Source: Planctomycetota bacterium (GTDB lineage: Bacteria; Planctomycetota; UBA1135; GCA-002686595). Taken from it: a stretch of 64,000 nucleotides of DNA. Positions 17,791 to 45,775 of the stretch are shown piece by piece. The translations under genes and the position numbers were made by a program. The notes beneath the pieces are model-generated. The model made no database searches. It saw nothing but the letters and a program-made list of their open reading frames with translations, and was not told the DNA's origin. Position 1 is the first letter of the stretch. Each line of letters begins with the position of its first letter. The DNA lies in contig JADHOC010000012.1 of the NCBI GenBank assembly GCA_016779205.1, positions 1-64,000 on the forward strand. Reading direction: 5' to 3'.

Positions 17791-18810
17791 ATGGCTGCTC
17801 CGGAATTCGGTCGCGCCGCAGGCGTGCTCTGGTTGCTGCCGGTCCTGTTCTGGAACGGGATCGTCGGCGGGTTCGACACGGTCCTCGCCCTTCAGTACCT
17901 GCGCGAGCGACGGGCACGGCTCGAGTGGGTCGAGGTCGACGCCACCGTCCTGTCGTCCGAGGTCGTCTCGAATCGCTCGAGCGACGGCACCACCTACATG
18001 CCCAAGGTGCGCTTCACCTACCGCTTCGACGGGCGGGACCACGAGTCCGACAGGTACTCGTTCGGGACCTTCTCCACCAGCGATCGGTCCTACGCTCGCG
18101 GGGTGGTCCAGGACCACCCGGAAGGCGCGGAGGTGCCCGCACTCGTCGACCCGGAGGATCCCACCGAGGCCGTGCTCGATGCGTCGGGCGCGGCGTTCCC
18201 CAAGGGCGTGGTGCTGTTCCTGACCCCGTTCCACTGCGTCGGCGTCTGGCTGATCGGCCGGATGCTCCGGGCCTTCACCGCGCGCCGGCCGCGGGCGGGC
18301 GATCGTCACTTCCGTCGCTACGCCGCCATCGACGACGAGGACCGCCTGATCCTCCGACAGCCGCGGCTGGCCCCCTGGGAGGTGACCCTGCTCGCCTTCG
18401 GGGTGTTGTCCTTCATCTGCGTCTTTCCGGTGTTCTTCTTCGCGGGGATGATGGGGTCGGGCTCGCTCGTGCTGCCCGTCCTCACCTGTTGCGCAGTGGG
18501 AGCAGCGGCCGCCCGCCGCTGGAGCGCGCGCAGGCTCCGAGACCCGGCGCGCTTCCTCCACGTGGACCGCCGGCTGGGTCGGTTCTCCTTCCCCGCAGAC
18601 GAGGAGGGGCACCCGATCGCGGACGTGGAGGAGCTCGTCCTGCGCTCGCGGGAGACGAACGTGACCACCAACGGCGTGCCCCAAGTGGACCACAGCCTGA
18701 GCGCTTTCATCGGCGACAGGCGCGTGGCCGTCTTCCGCTTCCGGGGTGCGCCCGAGGCGGGCGAGGCGCTCCGCCGAGGCCTCGCCGCCGAGTTCGGACT
18801 CGCGGAGTGA
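17791..18810 (+). CDS. DUF3592 membrane protein
   Basis: 339 residues from the ATG at 17791, with GGAG a few bases upstream. It has an N-terminal membrane segment (GVLWLLPVLFWNGIVGG), then a DUF3592-type domain: WVEVDATVLSSEV, YMPKVRFTYRFDGRD, DHPEGAEVPALVDPEDPTEAVLD, and a second membrane segment. Two more hydrophobic segments follow around FGVLSFICVFPVFFFAGM, then a cytoplasmic tail with a strand-rich region. Function of the family is unknown. It starts 8 nt after pyrD. Its stop codon at 18808-18810 directly abuts the stop of the convergent DUF3050 gene, leaving no room for a separate terminator. Confidence 0.83.
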   Translation: MAAPEFGRAAGVLWLLPVLFWNGIVGGFDTVLALQYLRERRARLEWVEVDATVLSSEVVSNRSSDGTTYMPKVRFTYRFDGRDHESDRYSFGTFSTSDRSYARGVVQDHPEGAEVPALVDPEDPTEAVLDASGAAFPKGVVLFLTPFHCVGVWLIGRMLRAFTARRPRAGDRHFRRYAAIDDEDRLILRQPRLAPWEVTLLAFGVLSFICVFPVFFFAGMMGSGSLVLPVLTCCAVGAAAARRWSARRLRDPARFLHVDRRLGRFSFPADEEGHPIADVEELVLRSRETNVTTNGVPQVDHSLSAFIGDRRVAVFRFRGAPEAGEALRRGLAAEFGLAE

Positions 18811-19593
18811 TCAGGCCATGGCCGCGAGGACGTCCCAGAGGGCGCGCCTCGCCTCGAGGGCCGTCTCCGCCGCCTCGCGAGCCTCACGCTCCTTGCGGGG
18901 GTCGCCCGCCAGGATCCGGCCCAGGATCCGCCGCGCGAGGGGACCGTGGTGCTCGCCATCGGCCTCGATGTGACGCTCGAGGTAGCGCTTGAACAGGGAG
19001 CAGTCCGTGCCGCCAGCCGTGAGCTCATCCACGATCGGGATGAACAGCTGCGGGATCACGTCCTCGCGGCCGTGGAAGAAGATGGAGGCGCGCACGTGGA
19101 GGGGCCCCTCGAGCAGTTCGAACGTCTTGCGCCCGAAGCGCACGGCGGCCCCCGGGAGCGCGCAGTCCGAGAGGACCTCCAGCGGCGCCTCGCCTTGGCG
19201 GAGCCGTTCGGTCACGCCGCGGATCGGGAGCGTGTCCGCCCCGACCTGCTCCATGGCCGCGAGGTACCACTCGTAGTGGCTCAGGGCGTGCTCGCCGAAC
19301 TCGGCGTCGGACTCCTCGTCGAGGACGATCTCGTTGATGAAGCGCGCGCCCTCTCGGTCCAGCGGGGGCGTCCACACCGGCCCGACGCTGGTGAGGTCGC
19401 GCTGCAGGCTCTTCACGATCGACATGAAGTCCAGCACGCACATGACGTGGTGCTCCATGAAGTTCCTCAGGGCCGCCGGGGAGCGCAGCGACCGCGCGCA
19501 TCGGTGGGAAGCGAGCTCGGCTTTCGCCCGCGCGACGGAGACGGAGTCTGAGGACTCAACGGTATCGAGCTGGGGGGGTTCGACGTTGACCAT
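18811..19593 (-). CDS. DUF3050 family protein (heme-oxygenase-like fold)
   Basis: 260 residues from the ATG at 19593; longer starts upstream add a poor N-terminus. The family signature is FMEHHVMCVLDFMSIVKSLQ, followed by FINEIVLDEESD, HYEWYLAAMEQVGA and ERHIEADGEHHGPLA. These His/Glu/Asp positions (EHH, EIVLDEESD, ERHIEADGEHH) match the arrangement of heme-oxygenase-like proteins, some of which are non-heme diiron oxidases. Whether this one binds iron is not shown by sequence alone. It lies 31 nt behind a 2OG-Fe(II) oxygenase gene on the same strand, so the two probably act in one oxidative pathway. Confidence 0.9.
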   Translation of the reverse strand: MVNVEPPQLDTVESSDSVSVARAKAELASHRCARSLRSPAALRNFMEHHVMCVLDFMSIVKSLQRDLTSVGPVWTPPLDREGARFINEIVLDEESDAEFGEHALSHYEWYLAAMEQVGADTLPIRGVTERLRQGEAPLEVLSDCALPGAAVRFGRKTFELLEGPLHVRASIFFHGREDVIPQLFIPIVDELTAGGTDCSLFKRYLERHIEADGEHHGPLARRILGRILAGDPRKEREAREAAETALEARRALWDVLAAMA

Positions 19594-19624
19594 GCAGACA
19601 GCGTAACCCAGATCGTCGGATTCT

Positions 19625-20710
19625 TCAGGCGGCAGTCGGTCGCGGAGGTGCGCCCTGACTCCCATCGAGAGCCTCACCGCGACGGCTTGCCGCGGGCCGC
19701 GGCGCGAGGGGGTCCGGGAAGAAGAAGTTCCGCGGGATCGACCGCGGCGGGGTCAGCGCCAGCGCCTGGGGCGAGGCCGCTGGGAAGCGGCCCGGGTCGA
19801 TCCAGTTGAAGGGCGTCTCGTGAACGAGGTCGAACCGCTGGAGTACCCCCATGAAGACCGTGCGCTCCCGGCCGTGGTGGACGCGGCTCCCCTGGTGCAG
19901 GGTGGTCGACGTGTCGAGGAGCAGGATCCGGCCGCGCTTGCCGGTCATGGTGACAAGATCAGCGGGGTCCACGACCCTGCGCACCTCTTCGTCGGCGTAC
20001 GGCCCCGCACGCATGTACGAGCCCACGGGGCCGACGGGGCGGCCGCCCAGCTTGCGGACGGCCTCTCGGGACGCCGCGGCCGGCAGGAAGGTCAGCGGCC
20101 CGTCGCGCTCGTCCTCGACGTCCGAGAGCAGGACGAAGACCTTGATCTGACGGTCGTCTTCCCCGTCGAAGTGGAAGAGCTGGCTGCCCGCCCAGGGCTC
20201 CCCATCGGGCTGCTCCTGGCCGGGGGAGTAACCGACGGCCACACGCCTCAGCAGCGGAACACCGCCGAGGTAGTCCGAGGCGCACGCGAGGAGCTCGTCG
20301 GACACCATCGCGTCCACCAGCTCGGGGCGCTCATCGAGACCGTCGTCCCCCAGGAGGTCAAAGGCGATCCGATACCTGCCGGGGGCCTCAGCCTCGAGCC
20401 GCGGGAGGTGGGGCCGCGCTCCGTCGATGACGCCGTCGCAGGAGTGAATCAGGGCGTCCATGCCGGGGAGTTCGCCGGGCTCGATCCAGCGGTAGCCGAG
20501 CTCGGGGTCGATCTTTATGGGGCAGCCGGTGCGCTTGATGAGCGCCTTGCCCGCGAGCGACCGCTGCTTCCGCGCTCCCCAGTGCGTCAGCCTCCGGTGC
20601 CCCTTGAGCACCCGGAACCCCAGCTCACTCGCGTACATCGAGTAATGCAGGCGGGTGCGCAGGCCCACGCCGCGATCGCGGTGGGCGTCCTGGTGAACGG
20701 AGTTGGACAT
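19625..20710 (-). CDS. phytanoyl-CoA dioxygenase-like 2OG-Fe(II) oxygenase
   Basis: 361 residues. The double-stranded beta-helix core shows the iron-binding HxD in SQLFHFDGEDD, the distal His in TTLHQGSRVHHG, and the 2-oxoglutarate-binding Arg in HGRERTVFMG. The segment IKVFVLLSDV followed by GPLTFLPAAAS is typical of PhyH-like enzymes. It is soluble, with a basic N-terminal region (GHRRLTHWGARKQRS). The reaction would be hydroxylation or a related 2OG-dependent oxidation of an unknown substrate. Operon with the DUF3050 gene downstream; a perfect inverted repeat lies 10 nt before the start (20720-20739). Confidence 0.82.
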   Translation of the reverse strand: MSNSVHQDAHRDRGVGLRTRLHYSMYASELGFRVLKGHRRLTHWGARKQRSLAGKALIKRTGCPIKIDPELGYRWIEPGELPGMDALIHSCDGVIDGARPHLPRLEAEAPGRYRIAFDLLGDDGLDERPELVDAMVSDELLACASDYLGGVPLLRRVAVGYSPGQEQPDGEPWAGSQLFHFDGEDDRQIKVFVLLSDVEDERDGPLTFLPAAASREAVRKLGGRPVGPVGSYMRAGPYADEEVRRVVDPADLVTMTGKRGRILLLDTSTTLHQGSRVHHGRERTVFMGVLQRFDLVHETPFNWIDPGRFPAASPQALALTPPRSIPRNFFFPDPLAPRPAASRRGEALDGSQGAPPRPTAA

Positions 20711-20719
20711 CGGCCGGTG

Positions 20720-20739
20720 CCTTAGGGTATGCCCTAAGG
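20720..20739. promoter_or_regulatory. perfect inverted repeat upstream of the 2OG oxygenase gene
   Basis: CCTTAGGG-TATG-CCCTAAGG is an exact 8-bp dyad with a 4-nt centre, lying between the end of the GT39-like gene (20762) and the start of the oxygenase gene (20710). It is A+T-richer than its surroundings. This is what an operator for a dimeric repressor would look like. It could also be a small hairpin in the transcript; no T tract follows on either strand. Confidence 0.45.
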
Positions 20740-20761
20740 ATAAACCCGACCTCAGGACACC

Positions 20762-22414
20762 TCAATGGGCGTAGGCATCTTTCGGCTGTTTCGACCCTCG
20801 CAGTTGCCACTGGATCCAGAATTGGTTCCGAGCGGACCACGGAAAGGGCAGCTCCCCCGGCCTGAGGGGTGAGAAATAGGGTTTGAAGCGCTCCGGGGCG
20901 GCAGCTTCCAGCGCGGCGAGCGACTCCCCGAAGCCCCGCACCAGCGCCTCGAACCGGTCCCTCTGGGGCCCTGGCGCCATGTCCGGGGGCGGAGTCATGG
21001 TCGATCCGTACTTGAGCCTCCCCGAGAGGGTGAAGAGCACAATGTCCGCCTCGAGGTCCGAGCGGTGCTCCAGGGCACGCCGCATGGCCTCCACCAGCCG
21101 CTCCGGATCATCCCCGGCGCGCTCGAAGAGGAAGCCCCCCACGCTCTCGACCAGGTGCCCGGGCGCCGTGGCGTTGAGGTGCGCCCGATCCGGGCGGAGG
21201 TAGGAGGCCGTGGAGGCGGCCAGGAGAGTCAGCACGACGCCGACGACCGGGTAGGAGAGCGCCGGCCGCCAGCGGGCGAGCCAGACGCCGAGGCTGATCC
21301 AGGCGACCGGGTGAAGCGGGAGCATGTAGCGATAGCCGTTGACCCCCTTCAGCGGCTGGCCGTGGAAGCTCCCGAAGACGTAGCTGAGGGTCCAGAGCAC
21401 CGGGTACAGCGCGAGCGCCAGCTCCGGCCGCACCTCTCGCTCGCGGACGAGCGCCCTGAGCGAGCCCAGCGAGACCACCACCCAGGCGGACACCGCGAGG
21501 CCGAGGAGCACGAACTCGATGGCCCGGCCAGCGCCGCCCAGCTCAGGGAGGAAGATCGAGTGAGGCAGGTAGCCCGTCACCAGCTCGGCGAACGTCTCCG
21601 CCGCACCGGCGAGCGAGGTCTGGAAGTGCCCCGCCGCGGACTTGCCGTAGACGCCGAGGCCTTGCCAGTCGTGGGTCAGGTTGTAGACCCACCAGGGTCC
21701 GAGGCCCACGGCCACGCCGATGGCCCTCACCCCCATGTCCGCCCGGAACCAGGCCCGCCGATCCCGGAGCGCCTCGAGGATCAGCATCACCCCGAGCCAC
21801 AGGGCCAGCCCGTAGTGGAACCACAGGGAGAGTCCCGCGAGCACGCCGACCGCGAAGGCCTCCGGGAGCCGGCGCTCCTGCCGGAATGCGTGGCGGCTCC
21901 AGAACAGGAGCAACGCCATGGCGAAGGCGTTCGCCTCCACGTGGGAGGCCCACGCCAGCGCCCCGACCATCGCGTAGCCGGGCGAGGGGACGCAGGCGAA
22001 GAGCCCGGCGATCCACGCGGCCCGTCGCGAGAAGAGCCGATCCACGAGCAGGAAGAGGCACGCGATCGTGACCCAGTCGTAGAGCAGGTTGGGGAGCCGC
22101 ATGGTGAGCGGCGAACCGCCGAACACCTTGAAGCTCAACGCGTCGAGCCCGATGGTCAGGAGCGTGCCCCCCTGGAAGTGCCCCTGCTGATAGTCGAGGT
22201 ACGGCACAAGCGGCCCGTCGACCCACTCCTGGGCGGCCATCCCGCGACGCCATTCCTCGGTGTCCGGGAGTCCTCCCGGGGAAATCTCCTCCGGGGGCAT
22301 CGCGATCAGCGTGAGCTTGATCAGCGCCGCGAGCAGCAGGAGCAGCGCCACAGCGCGCGCCCTTCCCGGATGCACCAATCGGCCCGGGGCGCCTTCCTGG
22401 ATCCTTTTCGCCAT
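20762..22414 (-). CDS. GT39-like polytopic membrane glycosyltransferase
   Basis: 550 residues from the ATG at 22414; the frame is open further upstream, but MAKRIQEG with the following ALLLLLAALIKLTLIA is the natural start. About ten membrane segments. The first extracytoplasmic loop, after the first segment, has the acidic ISPGGLPDTEEWRRG, the position of the catalytic acidic pair in GT-C/GT39 (ArnT- and PMT-like) transferases. FHGQPLKGVNGYRYMLPLHP resembles the later conserved loop of such proteins. It would use a lipid-linked sugar donor on the outer face of the membrane. Acceptor unknown. The C-terminal about 130 residues are soluble. Confidence 0.82.
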   Translation of the reverse strand: MAKRIQEGAPGRLVHPGRARAVALLLLLAALIKLTLIAMPPEEISPGGLPDTEEWRRGMAAQEWVDGPLVPYLDYQQGHFQGGTLLTIGLDALSFKVFGGSPLTMRLPNLLYDWVTIACLFLLVDRLFSRRAAWIAGLFACVPSPGYAMVGALAWASHVEANAFAMALLLFWSRHAFRQERRLPEAFAVGVLAGLSLWFHYGLALWLGVMLILEALRDRRAWFRADMGVRAIGVAVGLGPWWVYNLTHDWQGLGVYGKSAAGHFQTSLAGAAETFAELVTGYLPHSIFLPELGGAGRAIEFVLLGLAVSAWVVVSLGSLRALVREREVRPELALALYPVLWTLSYVFGSFHGQPLKGVNGYRYMLPLHPVAWISLGVWLARWRPALSYPVVGVVLTLLAASTASYLRPDRAHLNATAPGHLVESVGGFLFERAGDDPERLVEAMRRALEHRSDLEADIVLFTLSGRLKYGSTMTPPPDMAPGPQRDRFEALVRGFGESLAALEAAAPERFKPYFSPLRPGELPFPWSARNQFWIQWQLRGSKQPKDAYAH

Positions 22415-22562
22415 ACCTTCCTGGAGTGGAACCCAGGGTGTGAGGCCGAGGATATGGGGTAGCAGAAGCAGGAATGACGCGGATTCGATAGCTTCTCTCT
22501 CCCGGCGTGGCCTCCCCCAGGCGCCCACACCGGGGATGCCTGCCCCCCCCGCAGCACGGACC

Positions 22563-22922
22563 ATGGCTCCCCAATCTGTACTCGTCGTCGAGGACAATCC
22601 CGTCCTCGCAGAGGCGATCACCTTCGCGCTCAGCACCTTCGGCTGGAGCGTGACCGGGCCATTCGCGACCAACGAAGCGGCCCTGGCGGCCATTCAATCC
22701 GAGGTGTTCACGGCGGCGATCCTTGACCTCGATCTGGGGGCGACCCTGTCAGTCCCCACGGCCGAGCGCCTCCGCGAACGCGGCATCCCCTTCCTGTTCA
22801 TGACGGGGCACGACGCCGCCGGGGTGGTCCCCGCGGAGTTCCAGAACGAGCCGTGCCTGGTGAAGCCGGTGGAGCCCGAGCAGCTCGTCCAGGCCCTCGA
22901 GGCCCTCACGAGCGGCTCCTGA
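22563..22922 (+). CDS. single-domain response regulator receiver
   Basis: 119 residues from the ATG at 22563. Receiver-domain residues are all present: acidic pair E10/D11 (VVEDN), phospho-acceptor D55 (ILDLDLG), Thr in FMTGHD and Lys in LVKPV. There is no output domain, so it acts by protein contact or phosphate shuttling. No kinase is adjacent; the GAF kinase at 10604 is the only one in the window. Divergent from the GT39-like gene with 148 nt between starts. That gap holds two promoters at most and nothing else I can support. Confidence 0.92.
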   Translation: MAPQSVLVVEDNPVLAEAITFALSTFGWSVTGPFATNEAALAAIQSEVFTAAILDLDLGATLSVPTAERLRERGIPFLFMTGHDAAGVVPAEFQNEPCLVKPVEPEQLVQALEALTSGS

Positions 22923-23037
22923 ACGAGCCGCGCCTGCGCCCCTGCGAGGGCGCGCCGGCTTCGCGACCTCCGGCTCAAGCGGAGACGCTCCCCGAGCCGA
23001 TGGGAGACCGGTGTGCCTCCGCGAAGGGGGCGTCCCC

Positions 23038-23565
23038 ATGGCCATGCCTCCCCGCACCACCAGCGCGACGCTCCGCGGCTTCACGATCCTCGAGCTGCTC
23101 ATCATCCTCGCGCTGCTCACGATCACGGCGAGCGTCGGGATCCCCGCGTACTTCGCCCGCCCTGCGGTGACCCTCGACAGCGCCGCGCGCCTGCTCGCGG
23201 CCGACATGCGTGAGGTCCAGAACCGCGCCGCCCTCTACCGCCTCCCGTTGATGGTGGAGTTCCCCGAGGACGGCACCGGCTATCGGGGCGTCAAGGAGAA
23301 CGGCGAGCCGCTCCACTCTCCCTACACCGACGGCCCCTTCGTCCGCGTCTATCCCGCGGACGCCGTCTTCGAGGGCGTCCGCGTCCTCGAGGTCCGCGCA
23401 CCCCGAGGGAACAGGGTCGCCTTCAACCCCAAGGGCCTGGCGGCAGCGACGGCCTCGATCGTCCTCGGCTTCGACGGCGAGACGCGCACGATCCGCATCC
23501 GGAAGGGCTCCGGGCTCGTCGAGATCGACGGCCTGGAAGACCCCTGGTTCGACTCCGGGCTCTAG
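23038..23565 (+). CDS. type II secretion pseudopilin (GspH-like)
   Basis: 175 residues from the ATG at 23038, preceded by a purine-rich AAGGGGG; an upstream GTG at 23011 is also in frame. The prepilin signature is complete: a basic leader, cleavage before GFTILELLIILALL with Glu at position 5, and the long hydrophobic alpha1 helix. The rest (AARLLAADMREVQNRAALY, beta-rich C-terminus) suits a GspH/FimT minor pseudopilin. No other secretion gene is nearby, so it is an orphan. Its stop TAG and the stop of the convergent rhodanese gene share the palindrome CTAG at 23562-23565. Confidence 0.82.
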   Translation: MAMPPRTTSATLRGFTILELLIILALLTITASVGIPAYFARPAVTLDSAARLLAADMREVQNRAALYRLPLMVEFPEDGTGYRGVKENGEPLHSPYTDGPFVRVYPADAVFEGVRVLEVRAPRGNRVAFNPKGLAAATASIVLGFDGETRTIRIRKGSGLVEIDGLEDPWFDSGL

Positions 23566-25807: not shown

Positions 25808-25847
25808 CAGGGAGGCCCCCCCGCGCAGACGCGGGGGGGCCTCCCTG
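25808..25847 (+). terminator. strong 18-bp hairpin after proS
   Basis: Two perfectly complementary 18-nt arms (25808-25825 and 25830-25847) flank a CAGA loop 22 nt after the proS stop. No T tract follows, but the stem is by far the strongest in the window. It fits the end of the proS transcript. The remaining DNA to 26007 is G+C-rich with no gene I can support. Confidence 0.75.
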
Positions 25848-39190: not shown

Positions 39191-40666
39191 TCAGTTCCCT
39201 GCGGTCGTCGCGGATTCCTCGGGGTCCTCCGACTCCTCGGGGTCCTCGCTCGGCTGCGGCTCCTCGCCGCCACCTTCCCCGGACGTCTCTCCGTCGGGAG
39301 TCTCTCCCTCCGGCGTCTCCTCCACAGGCTCCTCCTCCGGAGCATCCGCGGGGGACTCCTCACCGGCGTCCATGCGCTCGGCCGGCGCGAGGGCCGACTC
39401 AGGGCGGGGCCGGATGTGGGCGAAGAACATCTCCGCCTGTTTGTCGTAGACGATCTCCCCGTCGACGATCGCCCACTGGACGAAGGTCTGGTAGTGGAGC
39501 AGGTCGCCGTCGGTGACGATCAGGTCGGCGTCCTTGCCGACCTCGATGGATCCGATCCGGTAGTCGACGCCGAGCACCCGAGCCGCCTCGATCGTGATCG
39601 ACCGCAGCCCCGCGAGCTCCGGCAGACCGCCGCGGATGGCGAAGCCAGCCTCGACCGGAAGGTGCAAGAGGTCGGTACCCACGATGCCGCCGAGCGAGAT
39701 CCCGCGGGAGGCCGGGACGACCACGACGTTGACGCCGTGGCTGTAGAGGGTGGCCGCGTTCTCGATGCTCGAGCCGCCTTCGCGGAGCAGAGACTCGTCC
39801 TTCGGTCGGCGGCTCCGGGGCGTCACGATCGCGGTGGCTCCGGCCCGGCCGAGCTCATCCGCCACGGTCCAGCCCTCGCGGCAACCGTTGATGATCGGGC
39901 GGAAGCCGAAGCGCTGCGCCAGGTGCGCGATCTCCAGGAGGTCGGTGCGGCTGTCCGCGTTGAAGCACGGCCTCACCTCGCCCCGGAGGATCCTGAGCGA
40001 CTTCTGGTCGACGCCCTTCTTGGACGGCTCCTTGGCCTCCTTGTTGGACTTCTTCTCATCCTCCCACGCGCGGTAGGCGCGAATGTAGTCCGCCGCACCC
40101 TTCAGGTCCTGCTCGACCTTGAGCTGCCCCTGGGGGTTCCCGTTGGAGTAGCTCAGCGACTCGAACGCGGAGGTGTTCACCACGAGCCCCTGCACGTGGC
40201 CCCGCTTCAGCTTGGCCACGGTGTTGCCGTCGACGGCGGTCGTGATCCCTGCCGACAGGGCGAGGGTCATGTTCTGGTTGTAGGGGTCGACCGAGTCGTC
40301 GAGGTTGCCGCTGCTCCCGAAGAGCCCGAAGGAACCCACGGCGATGAGGCCCGGATACACACGCATCCCGGAGACGTCCACGACCTCGGCGTCCTCAGGG
40401 ACGTCCACGTCGTAGCCGAAGGCCTCGATCTTGCCCTCCCGCACGAGGATGGTGGCGTCCCGGAGGACACCGCCGAGGCCCGTGTGGATCTCGCCGCCCT
40501 TGAGGACGAGGACCTCCTCCTTGTCCTCCTCGGATTCCGCCTCCTTGGCGGGCTCGTCATCGAGGGGGGCGCTCGCCAGCGCCGCAGGTGCCAGGAACAG
40601 GGAGGCGGCCACGAGGAGCCGCATGGGCCGCGAGGCGCGGCGCTGCTGGTTGGGTCGGAGGTGCAT
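39191..40666 (-). CDS. exported amidohydrolase-fold protein, metal motif lost
   Basis: 491 residues from the ATG at 40666 (TGATG overlap with the preceding gene); a second start MRLLVAASL lies 42 nt further in. Signal peptide, then the amidohydrolase beta-sandwich start (EVLVLKGGEIHTG) and barrel. Where active family members have PGxxDxHxH, this one has VYPGLIAVGSF, so both His are absent (Gly, Phe), and the late Asp motif reads PASRGIS. The C-terminal amidohydrolase signature (LGVDYRIGSIEVGKDADLIVTDGDLL) is intact. A charged insert (AWEDEKKSNKEAKEP) lies where the barrel loops are, and the last about 50 residues are acidic, Pro-rich repeats (PEGETPDGETSGE, DPEESEDPEES). Last gene of the operon; probably not a metal enzyme. 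Confidence 0.85.
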   Translation of the reverse strand: MHLRPNQQRRASRPMRLLVAASLFLAPAALASAPLDDEPAKEAESEEDKEEVLVLKGGEIHTGLGGVLRDATILVREGKIEAFGYDVDVPEDAEVVDVSGMRVYPGLIAVGSFGLFGSSGNLDDSVDPYNQNMTLALSAGITTAVDGNTVAKLKRGHVQGLVVNTSAFESLSYSNGNPQGQLKVEQDLKGAADYIRAYRAWEDEKKSNKEAKEPSKKGVDQKSLRILRGEVRPCFNADSRTDLLEIAHLAQRFGFRPIINGCREGWTVADELGRAGATAIVTPRSRRPKDESLLREGGSSIENAATLYSHGVNVVVVPASRGISLGGIVGTDLLHLPVEAGFAIRGGLPELAGLRSITIEAARVLGVDYRIGSIEVGKDADLIVTDGDLLHYQTFVQWAIVDGEIVYDKQAEMFFAHIRPRPESALAPAERMDAGEESPADAPEEEPVEETPEGETPDGETSGEGGGEEPQPSEDPEESEDPEESATTAGN

Positions 40667-41889
40667 CACTGGTCCATGTCCCCGCTGACGAACTTGCCGT
40701 CGAGCATGACGGCGTCGAGCTTGGTGTCCGGCTGGAAGGGGTCGCCGGAGAAGATGAGGAGGTTGGCGCGCTTGCCCTCGGAGAGGGTCCCGAGCCGGTC
40801 GCCCAGCCCCATGAAGGCGGCGGGGTTGTGGGTGATCGCGCGCACGGCCGCCTTGCGGTCGAGCCCGGCGCCGATCATCACGCCGACGTCCTCGAGGAAG
40901 GACTCGAAGCCCGCCTTGGAGTCGGAGCGAGGCAGCAGGACGAGCTTGGCGCCCGCCCGCTCGAACTCGGCCGGCAGGTTGCGCTGGCGGAGCGTGCCGG
41001 GCACGAGGGTGATCAGCGGCTCCATGAGCACGAAGCACCCGCGCTCACCGACCTCGTCCGCGACGTGGAAGACGTCGATGTCCCGGGTCAGGGGGATGCG
41101 GAGGTGCCACTCGAACTCCTCGTCGCCGATGGCGTCCACCAGGTGGGCGTAGCTCGCGGCGTTGCGGATGGAGACCAGCGCCCTGAGCTTGCCCTCGCGC
41201 AGGTCGAAGAAGGGCTGCACCCGGGGATCGGCCTGGGGCGGGGTGAAGGTCGCCTTGGACTTCGACGAGGACTTCTTCTTGTCGCTCTTCGCCTTGGCCT
41301 GGGCCTTGTCGAACTTCTCGCGCTCCTTCGCGACTTTCTCGAGGTGGTCGTCCGCCTTCTTGAAGCCGTCGCGCAGGTTGCGCTTCGCGCTGCTGTTGTT
41401 GCCCATGACGACCTTCAGGTAGACCCCGTCCTCGACGATCATCTCCTCCGAGGAGTCACCTCGGGGGCGGACCGCCACCGCCTGGCCGGGGATGCCCTGG
41501 CCCGCGGGGTACTGCCCCACCGTGGTGACGCCGTTCTCGAGGAACGCCTTGTAGGCAGCCGAGGGATAGAGCTCGGCCGAGGCCATGACCTGCGGGCGCG
41601 AGTCGTTATACCCACCGCCCGACATGCCGTAGCGCGAGTAGGGGTTCACGAGGCCCGGCATGACGACCTGGCCCTCGTCGAGCTCGACCACGGGGATGCC
41701 GCGCTCGATCGGGAGGTCCTGGCCCATGGTGACGATCTCGCCGTCTTCAACGAGAATCACGGCGTGCTCCATCACCTCCCCGTCGCCAAGCTCGACGCGG
41801 GGGGCCTTGATCACGAATAGATCTCCCTGGACCGGCGCAGCGGGAGCCGCTGCCATCGGGCCGAGGAGGAGGAGGGGTGAGAGGATCAT
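40666..41889 (-). CDS. exported amidohydrolase-fold protein, metal motif lost
   Basis: 407 residues from the ATG at 41889 with a short signal peptide (MILSPLLLLGPMAAAPAAPV). The HxH site reads VVMPGLVNPYSRYG, that is Tyr84 and Arg86 in place of the two His, and the late Asp site reads PRSDSKAG. A highly basic/acidic insert (KKADDHLEKVAKEREKFD and a Ser/Lys stretch to about residue 225) replaces the loop before the middle ligands. The C-terminal part FMGLGDRLGTLSEGKRANLLIFSGDPFQ is a typical amidohydrolase tail. The protein keeps the fold but is unlikely to be a metal-dependent hydrolase. It overlaps the next gene by one base (TGATG). Confidence 0.85.
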   Translation of the reverse strand: MILSPLLLLGPMAAAPAAPVQGDLFVIKAPRVELGDGEVMEHAVILVEDGEIVTMGQDLPIERGIPVVELDEGQVVMPGLVNPYSRYGMSGGGYNDSRPQVMASAELYPSAAYKAFLENGVTTVGQYPAGQGIPGQAVAVRPRGDSSEEMIVEDGVYLKVVMGNNSSAKRNLRDGFKKADDHLEKVAKEREKFDKAQAKAKSDKKKSSSKSKATFTPPQADPRVQPFFDLREGKLRALVSIRNAASYAHLVDAIGDEEFEWHLRIPLTRDIDVFHVADEVGERGCFVLMEPLITLVPGTLRQRNLPAEFERAGAKLVLLPRSDSKAGFESFLEDVGVMIGAGLDRKAAVRAITHNPAAFMGLGDRLGTLSEGKRANLLIFSGDPFQPDTKLDAVMLDGKFVSGDMDQ

Positions 41890-41944
41890 GTGAGGTAGGT
41901 CCCGCGGGCCGCGCGACACTGCGCCGGCGTCCCGGGGTGTTCTG

Positions 41945-43147
41945 CTAGAAGAGCTGACCGTCGCGGTCGCGGTCGTACTCGAGGTCCCCGTCGATGTAGA
42001 CGGAGCGCACGGAGGAGCGGGGGTCGAGCGGATCGCCGTCCCAGAGAACGACGTCCGCGTCCTTGCCGGCCTCGAGGCTTCCGACTCGGTGGGCAAGGTT
42101 GAATGAGATGGCGGGGTGGATCGTGATGGCGCGCAGCATCTGGTACGGGTCGGCGCCGTAGCGCGCGCTCATGGAGCCCTGGAGGAAGAAGAACTCCTCC
42201 GCGATCACCCCTGAATCCGTGTTGAGTGAGAACAGCGGAACGCCTGCATCAACGAACTCCGACGCCGTTCCGACGATCCGGCCCTCCCGGCTGGAGTAGT
42301 AGTCGATCGTGCGCGGGCCATGGTTGACCGGGATGTCGATGACAGCGAGCGCCGGCGCCACCTTCCAGCCGTCGAAGCTGCCGTGGGAGATCACGGCGAC
42401 GGCGCCGTACTTCACCTTCCACATGCGCGCGGTGTTCACCACGCCCTCGCTGCCCGCCGTATGGATCAGCACGGGGAGGTCCCCCGAGACCACCCGCGAG
42501 AGGTTCTCGAGCGCCGGATCACGGCGCCCTTGCCTGTAGGCGCCGAGCGCGCGGTCCGCGACGTCGCGCAGGTTCCACTCCATGCCAGCGCGGGTGACCC
42601 CGACGTCTGTCGAGTTCCGCCGCTGGGGGTTCGAGTCCTGGGCGACCTTGAGCCCCCCGGGGTCACGCACGACGCTGGCCTGGAAGCCACCTGTGGAGCG
42701 CGACTTGTAGACGAGCCCGAAGCCGCCCATGTTCGAGCCGCTGCCAGGGATCCCGAAGAGCGTGGTCACGCCACCTGCGCGCCCCACCTCGATCACGCTG
42801 TTCCCCGGCCGATAGGAGGGCGCCGCCCGGAGCTCTGGATTCACGGCGTGGACGGTGTCGTTGATGTCACCGAAGCCGCCACTGTGGATGTGGGTGTGCA
42901 GGTCAACGAACCCGGGCACCGCCCAGGCGTCGAGCGCCAGGACGGGTTCAGGGGCGCCCCCGCGGGCCTCGATCGGGCCCGCGTAGGTGATCTTGCCGTC
43001 CTCGAGCACGACCATGCCGGGGGAGTGGATCTCGTCCGCGGCGTTCATGGTGAGCACCTTGCCCACGTGCAGCACGACCGTGTCGGGCACGGCGGCGCCC
43101 GCCAGCGCGGGGGCGAGCAGGGCGGCGATGGAGTGCAGCATCACCAT
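41945..43147 (-). CDS. exported amidohydrolase, metal site intact
   Basis: 400 residues; starts at 43147 or at the overlapping 43141 (TGATG with the stop of the previous gene). Signal peptide MVMLHSIAALLAPALAGAA. The metal motif HxH is at H84/H86 (GFVDLHTHIH). GVTTLFGIPGSGSNMGGFGL and DPGGLKVAQDSNP follow as in imidazolonepropionase-like amidohydrolases; the Lys of that segment is a candidate for carboxylation. VLIHTAG and ISHGSF give the later His, SLNTDSG the catalytic Asp, and HRVGSLEAGKDADVVLWDGDP the family tail. Metal-dependent hydrolysis of a cyclic amide or peptide-like bond in the periplasm is likely; substrate unknown. Confidence 0.88.
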   Translation of the reverse strand: MVMLHSIAALLAPALAGAAVPDTVVLHVGKVLTMNAADEIHSPGMVVLEDGKITYAGPIEARGGAPEPVLALDAWAVPGFVDLHTHIHSGGFGDINDTVHAVNPELRAAPSYRPGNSVIEVGRAGGVTTLFGIPGSGSNMGGFGLVYKSRSTGGFQASVVRDPGGLKVAQDSNPQRRNSTDVGVTRAGMEWNLRDVADRALGAYRQGRRDPALENLSRVVSGDLPVLIHTAGSEGVVNTARMWKVKYGAVAVISHGSFDGWKVAPALAVIDIPVNHGPRTIDYYSSREGRIVGTASEFVDAGVPLFSLNTDSGVIAEEFFFLQGSMSARYGADPYQMLRAITIHPAISFNLAHRVGSLEAGKDADVVLWDGDPLDPRSSVRSVYIDGDLEYDRDRDGQLF

Positions 43148-44388
43148 GCCTGGCCCCCGACCTCGGCGTCGTACACCTTCTCACCGTTGACCCAGACCGC
43201 GTCGAAGTGAGTGCGCGGGTCGATCGGGTCGCCGTTGCAGACCAGGATGTCCGCATGCTTACCCGGCTCCAGGCTACCCACGCGGTCAGCGATGCCCGAG
43301 GTGCGCGCGGGGATGATGGTGACGCCGCGCAGGCCCTGGGCGCGGTCGTTGCGGAGCCCGTACCGGACACCCATGGCGGCCTGGGTGGTGAGCTCCTCCT
43401 GGGGTACAACGGGGGCGTCGGTGTTGAAGCCGATGTCCACCATGCCCTGCTCCTGGAAGCCCCACGCGGTGCCCTCGATGCGGCCGTCGGTGTCGAACCG
43501 CGGGGGGCGGGGGGCCATGATCTCGCGGGGCCCGAGGATGGCGCCGACGCCGAACTCCTTGGCCAGCGGCGTCGTGAGGTAGCTGTCGAAGGACCCGTGG
43601 TCGATGTAGGTCGGCAGGCCGAAGTCCCGCGCCAGCATCGTGATGGTCATCAGCACCAGCTGGTAGTACTGCGTGTGGGTCGAGACCTGGGTGTCCCCCG
43701 CGTACAGGAAGCGGAAGATGTCCAGCTCCAGCTCCCGCTCGGGCTTGGCCCCCTCCCCCTCCAGGTAAGCGTCCCACGCCTTGGCGTAGGCCTGGCCGCG
43801 GCGGAGCCTGAAGCGCAGCCCGTAGTTCATGAGGATGCGGCCCATGCCGTACCCCCACCGGGTCGGGTTGTCGCCCTGGGCGATCTTCAGCGAGCCCGGG
43901 TCACGCAGGAGCGCCTCCTCGTAGCCGTCGATCCCGAGCTTCATGAGGACGCCGGTGCCCCCCATGTTGGTGCCCGAGCCCGGGATGAAGAGGATCGTGG
44001 TGACCCCCGCGGCCAGGGGCTTCTCGAGGGCCGAGTTGTTGGGGATGACCGCGGGCGACACGCGCAGCTCGGAGTTGAGCTGGAACACCATGTCGTTGAT
44101 GTCGCCGCGCGACCCGCCCACGTGGCTGTGCAGGTCCACGAAGCCAGGGGCCAGCCAGCGGTCGCCGTAGTCGATCACCTCTGCGCCCTCAGGGATCTCG
44201 ACCGAGCCCTCGGGTCCGATGGCCTCGATCTTGCCGTCGCGCATGACGACGACCGGATCGAGGATGAAGCCCGGGCCCTCGTACTCGCAGGTCAGCGCCT
44301 TCGCCGCGCGCAGGACCACGGCCTCTCCCTGGACGGCCGAGGGGGCGGTCCAGAGCAGGGCGCAGGTGCTGGCGACGAGGCAGATCAT
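43141..44388 (-). CDS. exported amidohydrolase, metal site intact
   Basis: 415 residues with a signal peptide ending about SAVQG. HxH at H87/H89 (GFVDLHSHVGG), GVTTILFIPGSGTNMGGTGV, RDPGSLKIAQGDNP with the candidate carboxylated Lys, THTQYYQLVLMT, IDHGSF, and GFNTDAPV for the catalytic Asp. The tail IADRVGSLEPGKHADILVCNGDP is the family ending. It resembles the neighbouring genes at 44423 and 45785 more than the one at 41945 over the GSGTNMGG and VSTHTQ segments. Overlaps the next gene by 7 nt. Substrate unknown; likely a metal-dependent periplasmic hydrolase. Confidence 0.88.
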   Translation of the reverse strand: MICLVASTCALLWTAPSAVQGEAVVLRAAKALTCEYEGPGFILDPVVVMRDGKIEAIGPEGSVEIPEGAEVIDYGDRWLAPGFVDLHSHVGGSRGDINDMVFQLNSELRVSPAVIPNNSALEKPLAAGVTTILFIPGSGTNMGGTGVLMKLGIDGYEEALLRDPGSLKIAQGDNPTRWGYGMGRILMNYGLRFRLRRGQAYAKAWDAYLEGEGAKPERELELDIFRFLYAGDTQVSTHTQYYQLVLMTITMLARDFGLPTYIDHGSFDSYLTTPLAKEFGVGAILGPREIMAPRPPRFDTDGRIEGTAWGFQEQGMVDIGFNTDAPVVPQEELTTQAAMGVRYGLRNDRAQGLRGVTIIPARTSGIADRVGSLEPGKHADILVCNGDPIDPRTHFDAVWVNGEKVYDAEVGGQAW

Positions 44389-44422
44389 GGGGCTTCAGGC
44401 GCGGCGCGGGGCCGCGGTCACC

Positions 44423-45775
44423 TCACCAGAGGCGGGGCTCCTCCTTGGTGTCGTAGACCGTCTCCCCGCTCTGCCAGACGTGCTTCACGTAGCTGCGGGG
44501 GTCGGCGGGGTCGCCGGTGATGACGATCAGGTCGGCGATCTTGCCGACCTCGATGCTGCCGATGGCGTCGCCCAGCCCGCAGGCCATGGCGGGGACGATG
44601 GTGAGCCCGCGGACGGCGTCCATGTTCTTGTTGTCGAACCCGTACCTCACGCCCATGGCCGCCTGGAGCTGGAGCTCCTCCTGGGGGATCACGGGGGAGT
44701 CCGTGTTGAAGCCGAGGCGGGTGGTGCCCATCTGCTGGTAGCCCGCCACGCAGCCCTGGATCCGCTCCGGGTTGGAGCCCGACCAGTTGATGAACCCGCG
44801 CGTCGGGACGTCGATCCCCCGGGGCCCGATGATCGCGAACATCTCGCGCTTCTCGACCTCGGCGCCAAGGCGCCAGGTATCGAAGGTGCCGTGGTCGATG
44901 AAGACCGGGATGCCGAGCTCGTCGTGCACCATGGTCAGCGTCATGAGCGCGACCTGGTAGATCTGCGTGTGGGTGGAGACCTGGCACTCGTTCTTCCGCA
45001 GGGAGCGGAAGATCTCGAACTGCGGGTTGATCGTCGGCTTGGCGCCGCCGTCCTTCTCGTAGGCCTCCCACTGCTTCGCATAGGCGATGCCGCGCTTGAA
45101 GGTGTTGCGCGTGTGCCAGTTCATGAAGGAGCGGTTCGGGCGCAGCATCCAGCGCTCCGGGTTGCCCGCCTGGGCCAGCTTCATGGAGCCGGGGTCCCGG
45201 ATCATGGCGCGCTCGTACTCGTCGAAGCCGGTGCGCAGGAGCACCCCCTGGCCGCCGATGTTCGTGCCCGAACCCGGGATGTAGAGGACCGTGGTGACCC
45301 CTGCCGCCAGGCCCACCCGGAGCAGCGGGTTGCCGGCGATGACGTCGCTCGAAGCACGCACGCCGGGGTTGGTCAGGTAGACCGTGTCGTTCAGGCCGAA
45401 GGCGCCCGCCACGTGGCAGTGCATCTCAACCAGCCCGGGCATGACCCAGTCATCGCCGGCGTCGTAGACCGAGTACCCGTCGGGGATCTCCGTCTCGGCC
45501 GCCGGCCCGACGGCCTCGATGCGGCCGTCCTTCACCAGGACGATGCCGTTGTTCACCACCGAGCGACCCTGCCACTCGGCCGTCAGAATCTTCGACGACT
45601 TGATCGCGAGCCCGGGGCCACCCTCGGCGCCCGGCCTGGCGACCGCGGGCGGCGTGGCCGGCCCCGGCGCGACCCCGAGGGGATCGTTGCCGCCCGCCCA
45701 AGCGGTGGCCATGGAGAGCACGACGCAGGCGGCGCCGGCCAGGAGGGATCGCGGGTTGCTGGTTCGTTCAGACAT
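44423..45775 (-). CDS. exported amidohydrolase, metal site intact
   Basis: 450 residues with a long signal peptide (to about ATAWA) and a Pro/Ala-rich linker. HxH at H119/H121 (GLVEMHCHVAG, with Glu in place of the usual Asp before it), GVTTVLYIPGSGTNIGGQGV, RDPGSMKLAQAGNPERW, STHTQIYQVALMT, IDHGTFD and GFNTDSPV for the catalytic Asp. The end is CGLGDAIGSIEVGKIADLIVITGDP. Extra residues after the fold's middle (GIDVPTRGFINWSGSNP) differ from the gene at 43141. Likely an active metal-dependent hydrolase of unknown substrate. Confidence 0.88.
   Translation of the reverse strand: MSERTSNPRSLLAGAACVVLSMATAWAGGNDPLGVAPGPATPPAVARPGAEGGPGLAIKSSKILTAEWQGRSVVNNGIVLVKDGRIEAVGPAAETEIPDGYSVYDAGDDWVMPGLVEMHCHVAGAFGLNDTVYLTNPGVRASSDVIAGNPLLRVGLAAGVTTVLYIPGSGTNIGGQGVLLRTGFDEYERAMIRDPGSMKLAQAGNPERWMLRPNRSFMNWHTRNTFKRGIAYAKQWEAYEKDGGAKPTINPQFEIFRSLRKNECQVSTHTQIYQVALMTLTMVHDELGIPVFIDHGTFDTWRLGAEVEKREMFAIIGPRGIDVPTRGFINWSGSNPERIQGCVAGYQQMGTTRLGFNTDSPVIPQEELQLQAAMGVRYGFDNKNMDAVRGLTIVPAMACGLGDAIGSIEVGKIADLIVITGDPADPRSYVKHVWQSGETVYDTKEEPRLW

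Follow-up and report, generated by a model that had tools for sequence, protein, structure and literature searches.

A HamA-type DUF3050 oxidase gene next to a glycosyltransferase-oxygenase gene pair in Planctomycetota, with a candidate mRNA stem-loop at the site of a proposed operator

Most of the heme-oxygenase-like dimetal oxidases (HDOs) that have been studied come from natural-product pathways (PMC13108848), with DtpC of Acinetobacter an exception by its authors' account (PMC13232832) and CADD another. A ligand set of three histidines and three carboxylates has been described for these enzymes (PMC13108848), and the HDO MboA of the mangotoxin system is reported to have a dedicated redox partner, MboB (PMC13185094). 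One relevant group carries the DUF3050 domain, as does MgoB (PMC3298696). HamA, which belongs to the same group and is encoded in the fragin/valdiazen cluster, has been hypothesized to aid N-N bond formation after the N-oxygenase HamC (PMC11705231), and the proteins HamA, HamC, HamD and HamE are described as homologues of PvfA-D (PMC10194917); diazeniumdiolate-forming enzymes are nonetheless called still elusive in one account (PMC11659414). Here we analyse a 64,000-nucleotide stretch of a Planctomycetota genome (GCA_016779205.1, contig JADHOC010000012.1, positions 1 to 64,000 of the forward strand), hereafter the window, in which a DUF3050 gene lies beside a gene for a 2-oxoglutarate (2OG)-Fe(II) oxygenase, designated OG2, that is preceded by a perfect inverted repeat (the dyad). 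A preliminary description had proposed that the two enzymes act together on a small molecule as an inducible unit of oxidative tailoring, headed by the dyad as an operator-like element.

The two genes are the downstream members of a leftward run of three. A GT39-like membrane glycosyltransferase gene of the PMT_2 type (20762 to about 22498, minus strand, 5' end approximate; PF13231 at E 3.3e-8, 34.3 bits against a gathering cut-off of 26.1) is followed by a 51-nt spacer that holds the dyad (20711-20761), the OG2 gene (19625-20710, minus strand, 361 aa), a second spacer of 31 nt (19594-19624) and the DUF3050 gene (18811-19593, minus strand, 260 aa counted from the first conserved ATG). Next to the GT39-like gene, in divergent orientation, lies a gene for a CheY-like receiver protein. 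The leftward pair and its 31-nt gap had been described correctly, but the dyad does not head a two-gene unit; it was read in that way because the same-strand GT39-like gene, which ends 51 nt upstream of OG2, had gone unmentioned.

The account that we favour, and to which we would give about an even chance of being right as a whole, treats OG2 and DUF3050 separately. OG2 would belong with the GT39-like glycosyltransferase and most likely oxidizes a sugar or some other component of a surface glycan that this enzyme helps to make. The DUF3050 protein, which is encoded at this place also where the other two genes are missing, probably acts on a small substrate of its own, likely one derived from an amino acid. 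In the RNA between the GT39-like and OG2 genes, the dyad would be no operator but the inner stem of a stem-loop that closes by the start codon of OG2 and probably tunes either OG2 translation or transcript stability.

The assignment of OG2 to the glycosyltransferase comes from the distribution of the three genes. The closest named culture to the window is CP036434.1, listed as 'Planctomycetes bacterium Poly30' (Planctomycetota; genome G006 below), which we take to be the strain Saltatorellus ferox; the taxonomy contains the genus Saltatorellus, but no record connecting this strain with that name was found, and 'Saltatorellus-related' is partly our own assumption. Among the nine genomes of the window's genus (two of which pass a 90% completeness line), DUF3050 is present in all nine, whereas OG2 and the GT39-like gene occur in the same seven, and for this reason OG2 is grouped with the glycosyltransferase and not with DUF3050. 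Neither gene of this block was found in genomes G001 and G003. The order proS, rhodanese, pilin, CheY, DUF3050 and pyrD is retained in G003 without the block, and in G001 the DUF3050 gene has different neighbours, on a contig of 4.5 kb. Two side observations concern these assemblies: a G001 contig (G001:C623; L016/L032) starts with the frame SRGLGDVYKRQ, presumably sequencing-adapter read-through, and G008 holds a second GT39-OG2 copy that is cut by the contig end (G008:C137:20474-22514; L054, L047; OG2 93% over 84 residues) and perhaps represents a second strain in the metagenome bin.

The same separation is seen at greater distance. Across 154 genomes of the class, matches at E up to 1e-12 place DUF3050 in 59 genomes and OG2 in 12, and the two genes stand side by side in seven, all of one genus. 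They lie on different contigs in G012 and G026, and OG2 is present without a DUF3050 match at E 1e-12 in G028, G034 and G035, with G028 showing a weak one (E 4.6e-7). When 16 OG2 relatives on named contigs were inspected, DUF3050 fell within the fetched stretch of six, in the window's genus only; five of the ten contigs without it are under 6.5 kb, where a more distant link could escape. The neighbours of DUF3050 outside the genus are diverse (sulfatase-like proteins, transporters, an exonuclease-like protein, a desaturase and one glycosyltransferase, several of them named by eye). Within the genus, then, OG2 travels with the GT39-like gene; DUF3050 stands next to it there, but more often is present where OG2 is missing. 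A two-enzyme tailoring unit fits poorly with adjacency that is confined to one genus and with an OG2 gene that co-occurs with the GT39-like gene rather than with DUF3050.

A DUF3050 gene that keeps its place in G003 although the block is missing, and that is found elsewhere with no OG2, would also be expected if the three genes were mere neighbours: an older DUF3050 gene next to which a GT39-OG2 unit had been inserted, with a dyad of no function. We consider this explanation unlikely, partly on account of the short same-strand spacers: the nearest upstream stop lies 50-52 nt away in the six most similar GT39-OG2 junctions (hereafter the close junctions: one each from G000, G007, G002, G004 and G008, and the second G008 copy), and by coordinates the 31-nt spacer before DUF3050 is common to G000, G007 and G004. 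Co-transcription of the run is inferred.

The predicted structure of OG2 agrees with its active-site residues. H180, D182, H272 and R276 are invariant in all 16 aligned rows, the window's included, and R283 is invariant in the 15 rows that reach that position. OG2 has no NCBIfam match. Pfam, searched up to E 0.1, offered no family for it, PhyH (which we take to be PF05721) included, and a sequence search of the PDB gave nothing up to E 1. A profile built from 12 OG2 sequences gave marginal values (E 0.11-0.39) to ectoine hydroxylase and phytanoyl-CoA-dioxygenase-type proteins. An AlphaFold2 model (predicted local distance difference test score, pLDDT, 80.5) was matched by VIA to KanJ (kanamycin B dioxygenase, 6s0s; Z 16.8), ColD (16.2) and PrhA (15.6), and by Foldseek best to proline hydroxylase H11 (E 8.5e-9). 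The model and the alignment thus indicate a 2OG oxygenase fold equipped with the HxD motif, the distal histidine and the arginine. Because no Pfam family matches, we classify OG2 as a PhyH-like 2OG oxygenase of a small family from its modelled fold and its motif.

That OG2 is a glycan enzyme is, in our estimate, close to an even proposition. The top VIA match, KanJ, acts on an aminoglycoside. On the genomic side, we scanned 20 neighbour proteins from all ten OG2 contigs outside the genus (two of which, L065 and L067, come from one genome), together with four more of L070 and a repeat scan of the L065 protein. Pfam glycan genes were found nearby in four of the ten: GT2 in L062 and L066, two GT4-type genes and a sulfotransferase in L071, and NAD-dependent epimerase, MBOAT and AlgX-like genes in L070. 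No Pfam hit was obtained for the proteins just before OG2 in L068 (3017-5734) and L069 (2851-5583), or for the PMT-like protein of L065. Several points weigh on the other side. The scanned proteins of the other six contigs include no Pfam glycan family, one of the DUF3050 comparison contigs holds a glycosyltransferase too, the lead of KanJ, which is tied with ColD, over non-sugar enzymes is small, and Foldseek puts H11 first. The contrast between the two neighbourhoods is itself weak: it covers selected open frames of a small set, and DUF3050 is represented by no more than 10 neighbouring proteins, picked by eye on 8 of 12 contigs. The grouping of OG2 with the glycosyltransferase is also affected by the genome quality of G001: of the pair of genomes that lack the block, this one is only 80% complete and so gives weaker evidence of its absence.

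The dyad, CCTTAGGG-TATG-CCCTAAGG (20720-20739, no strand assigned), is perfect, as had been stated: it spans 20 bp with no mismatch, although it ends 9 nt rather than 10 nt from the OG2 ATG. The window is 71% GC and contains 27 perfect stems of at least 8 bp with loops of 3-8 nt, against a mean of 16.5 in 20 shuffles; within the 51-nt spacer, a perfect stem of at least 8 bp arose in 93 of 20,000 shuffles. If the dyad were bound by a repressor, the two oxygenase genes could form the inducible tailoring unit for a small molecule that the preliminary description envisaged, and the dyad would then overlap the -10 element of an internal promoter (TTGAGG-17-TATCCT), around the transcription start. 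Several observations are in keeping with this idea. The pattern TTGAGG-17-TAnnnT, which overlaps the dyad, is found in five of the six close junctions, and OG2 and DUF3050 are neighbours in all seven genus genomes that hold both. Moreover, pairs of an HDO and a 2OG enzyme exist in natural-product pathways, such as that of hormaomycin.

However, the promoter match is weak. It scores 7-8 of 12 positions, a value equalled by 65-245 of 1000 shuffles, and it is absent from G008. Its -35 element includes the stop codon of the GT39-like gene, which would be conserved in any case. When 18500-23100 was scanned specifically for promoters, none was detected. In G006 there is a different promoter match, CGGACC-18-TAGACT, which was equalled by 42 of 1000 shuffles. 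No other biosynthetic gene was recognized beside the pair.

The distribution of the dyad speaks further against an operator. The genome-wide search that had been suggested for further targets returned a single exact site, and with up to three mismatches there are eight sites, fewer than the 25 for the reversed pattern. Across the nine genus genomes, 12 dyad sites within two mismatches compare with 25 reversed ones (one to two dyad sites per genome, against zero to seven for the control; in G002 by itself the comparison is 1 to 0). The exact dyad occurs in one of these nine genomes, and none has a second exact site. At the orthologous junctions, G007 and the second G008 copy differ from the dyad by one mismatch and G004 by two, and no dyad within two mismatches is present in G002, the first G008 copy, G005 or G006. 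The left half is exact in five of the six close junctions and the right half in one, and neither is exact in G005 or G006. Thus, neither further sites before other genes nor retention of both half-sites in orthologues was observed, as would be expected of an operator, and the 71-nt spacer used as a DNA query within the genus gave six matches in five genomes, all at the GT39-OG2 junction. A dyad that is unique in its genome, and a gene linkage that was not found outside the genus, largely undo the earlier proposal, and we regard a repressor-controlled tailoring unit as quite improbable, although in the close species the dyad may yet have an operator role.

One site with two mismatches to the dyad was noted at G000:C33:93483-93502 (L002), also at G002:C21:7451-7470 (L120) and nearly so at G007:C7:74017-74036. 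In G000 and G002 the half-dyad CCTTAGGGTGGGCCCCATGG adjoins the ATG of a protein, presumably YceH/DUF480-like, that begins MDISLNGHEARALGVLIEKAF in G000 and MEISLNGHEARVLGVLIEKAF in G002. We did not count this site as a second operator, as only the left half is common to it and the dyad; the CCTTAGGGTGGGCCCCATGG half-dyad may be a promoter from which a leaderless transcript starts.

For the GT39-OG2 junction itself, we think an mRNA stem-loop likelier than the operator of a regulon, because the exact site is the only one and because, in relatives, the sequence decays while the stem-loop tends to stay. Eight junctions were folded and six were aligned. In each of the six close junctions a stem-loop lies within the last 36 nt before the OG2 ATG and ends beside it, and 14-17 of the 20 nt preceding the ATG are paired (12 and 14 in G005 and G006). 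With 500 shuffles each, and in the order G000, G007, G002, G004, G008 and second G008 copy, p was 0.006, 0.092, 0.044, 0.038, 0.07 and 0.042 at 36 nt; 0.012, 0.006, 0.024, 0.295, 0.054 and 0.002 at 50 nt; and 0.04, 0.038, 0.096, 0.236, 0.008 and 0.018 at 60 nt, for junctions that are related and not independent. All six therefore fall below 0.1 at 36 nt, which argues against a functionless dyad between mere neighbours. In G008 a 6-bp GCCCGG/CCGGGC stem stands in place of the TTAGGG-type stem, a replacement that favours a reading in terms of pairing over one in terms of sequence, though it is one case only.

This evidence is thin, and its statistics are modest. The more distant junctions reach significance at none of the three lengths: at 36, 50 and 60 nt, p was 0.22, 0.743 and 0.591 for G005 and 0.106, 0.285 and 0.828 for G006. 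Equal or better folding is shown by 7.5% of 10,662 window pieces of 36 nt and by 13.4% of 5,116 pieces of 50 nt. Perfect stems of 8 bp are common across the window, and just one species has the dyad in perfect form; both facts would suit a dyad without function. A scan of the whole window at Rfam gathering thresholds gave no match. Two terminator-like sites were found in 18500-23100 (shuffle mean 1.1), none of them at the dyad, which was rejected as an intrinsic terminator because it has no T run.

The DUF3050 protein can be placed more closely than OG2. Residues 27-255 match PF11251 with 241.1 bits against a gathering cut-off of 22.2, and the sole relative of solved structure by sequence at E < 0.001 is PDB 9vwb (E 2.3e-45), entitled 'HamA, a Heme-Oxygenase-Like Enzyme'. 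A predicted model (pLDDT 76.4) was matched by VIA to 9vwb with Z 27.1 over 236 residues, followed by CADD (17.5), HrmI (17.5) and UndA (17.3), with others below, which indicates the helical heme-oxygenase-like fold of HDOs. E94, H106, E177, H208, D212 and H216 are invariant in all 20 aligned rows and provide the three histidines and three carboxylates of a presumed metal site, a ligand assignment made by analogy with a CADD-based model (PMC4520260). E98, an extra glutamate considered as a possible counterpart of the seventh carboxylate of SznF-like enzymes, is not conserved. Taken together, the modelled fold and the six invariant residues identify a HamA-type HDO. The class assignments given to both enzymes in the preliminary description, and its HxD..H..R set for OG2, are thus sustained, and its suggested comparison with known diiron oxidases bears out the heme-oxygenase-like assignment; of the residues it listed for DUF3050 (EHH..EESD..HIEADGEHH), H215 is not invariant.

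Two further observations bear on whether this protein might be a self-sacrificing pABA synthase like CADD, for which a conserved sacrificial tyrosine and a genome lacking pabB would be expected. An N-terminal tyrosine seen in many other DUF3050 rows is missing in the clade of the window, as read by eye. No pabB match over the cut-off was found in the nine genus genomes, although the control itself passed that threshold in just 4 of 14. Below the cut-off, the close clade (G000, G002, G004, G007 and G008) has zero to one pabB-model match and the other four genomes two to three, so the low counts possibly reflect either loss of pabB or incompleteness.

With HamA as its nearest solved relative, and with MgoB also a DUF3050 protein, the window's enzyme might be supposed to make a diazeniumdiolate signal of the valdiazen or leudiazen kind, as proposed for HamA and its homologues. 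The expected partner is an AurF-type N-oxygenase of PF11583, the family in which PvfB is placed (PMC10724926). PvfB itself was rejected as a DUF3050 counterpart for this reason, the counterpart being PvfA (PMC10194917). PF11583 was found in none of the nine genus genomes, of which seven are under 90% complete and two above, and in 14 of the 154 class genomes (8 over the cut-off) compared with 59 for DUF3050. Five class genomes (G075, G080, G086, G091 and G138) do hold both DUF3050 and a PF11583 match, though never on the same contig. Since the N-oxygenase was not found in the genus, and is never on a DUF3050 contig in the class, planctomycete DUF3050 most likely does not act in the HamA pathway as known, and we judge a diazeniumdiolate product very improbable.

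Outside the class, DUF3050 occurs in 33 records of a plasmid collection. Plasmids of Robbsia and Burkholderia glumae (L111, L112) carry DUF3050 followed by a hypothetical gene, a short-chain dehydrogenase/reductase gene, a CoF-synthetase-like gene, another hypothetical gene and a major facilitator superfamily transporter gene, in what appears to be a different cluster; no 2OG enzyme is annotated by DUF3050 in these records, whose gene tables are incomplete. Among the matches listed in literature on DUF3050, HDOs, leudiazen, HamA/MgoB relatives and Saltatorellus, no DUF3050-2OG pair is described.

Elsewhere in the window, a perfect stem of 18 bp around a 4-nt loop (25808-25847) lies 22 nt past the proS stop and perhaps marks a transcript end. 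Amidohydrolase-like open frames, named by eye, stand in a row at 39191-45775 (minus strand). The perfect dyad AGGTCGGC-N6-GCCGACCT occurs inside two of them, at 39522-39543 and 44529-44550, and is probably not regulatory because it encodes an EVGKxADL stretch common to both frames.

The two oxygenases are further members of known enzyme families. A HamA-type oxidase that is kept widely in Planctomycetota (59 of 154 class genomes) outside any recognizable secondary-metabolite cluster might carry out an as yet undescribed metabolic or stress-related O2 reaction, and in the Saltatorellus-like genus might now share one transcript with a glycan-modifying 2OG oxygenase; we offer this only tentatively, and on balance we doubt it. 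The OG2 family, which has no Pfam model and is found with a glycosyltransferase, poses a second, smaller question, to which the operator proposal adds nothing. The more open question is that of the Planctomycetota DUF3050 proteins that stand without OG2 and without the HamA-pathway partner.

Comparison with described systems sets both enzymes in context. OG2 is like KanJ, ColD, PrhA, EctD and proline hydroxylase H11 in fold and in its HxD..H..R residues, but at 12-19% identity, and a common fold shows no substrate. DUF3050 is like CADD, HrmI, UndA, FlcD and PolF in its helical heme-oxygenase-like fold (Z about 14-17.5), again at only 11-16% identity, so that substrates are not transferable. 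The MboA/MboB system is similar in that an HDO gene is clustered with that of a partner (PMC13185094); unlike MboB, OG2 is an oxygenase and occurs without DUF3050 elsewhere. HamA (9vwb), PvfA and MgoB are closest, sharing with the window's protein the DUF3050 domain, the fold and the ligand motifs, with HamA 36-37% identical over 236-247 residues. In contrast to the HamA cluster, no non-ribosomal peptide synthetase was recognized beside the window's gene, which instead adjoins housekeeping genes and the glycosyltransferase-2OG block. A HamA-type enzyme kept by a lineage without the HamA-pathway N-oxygenase is a good place to ask what role DUF3050 has of its own.

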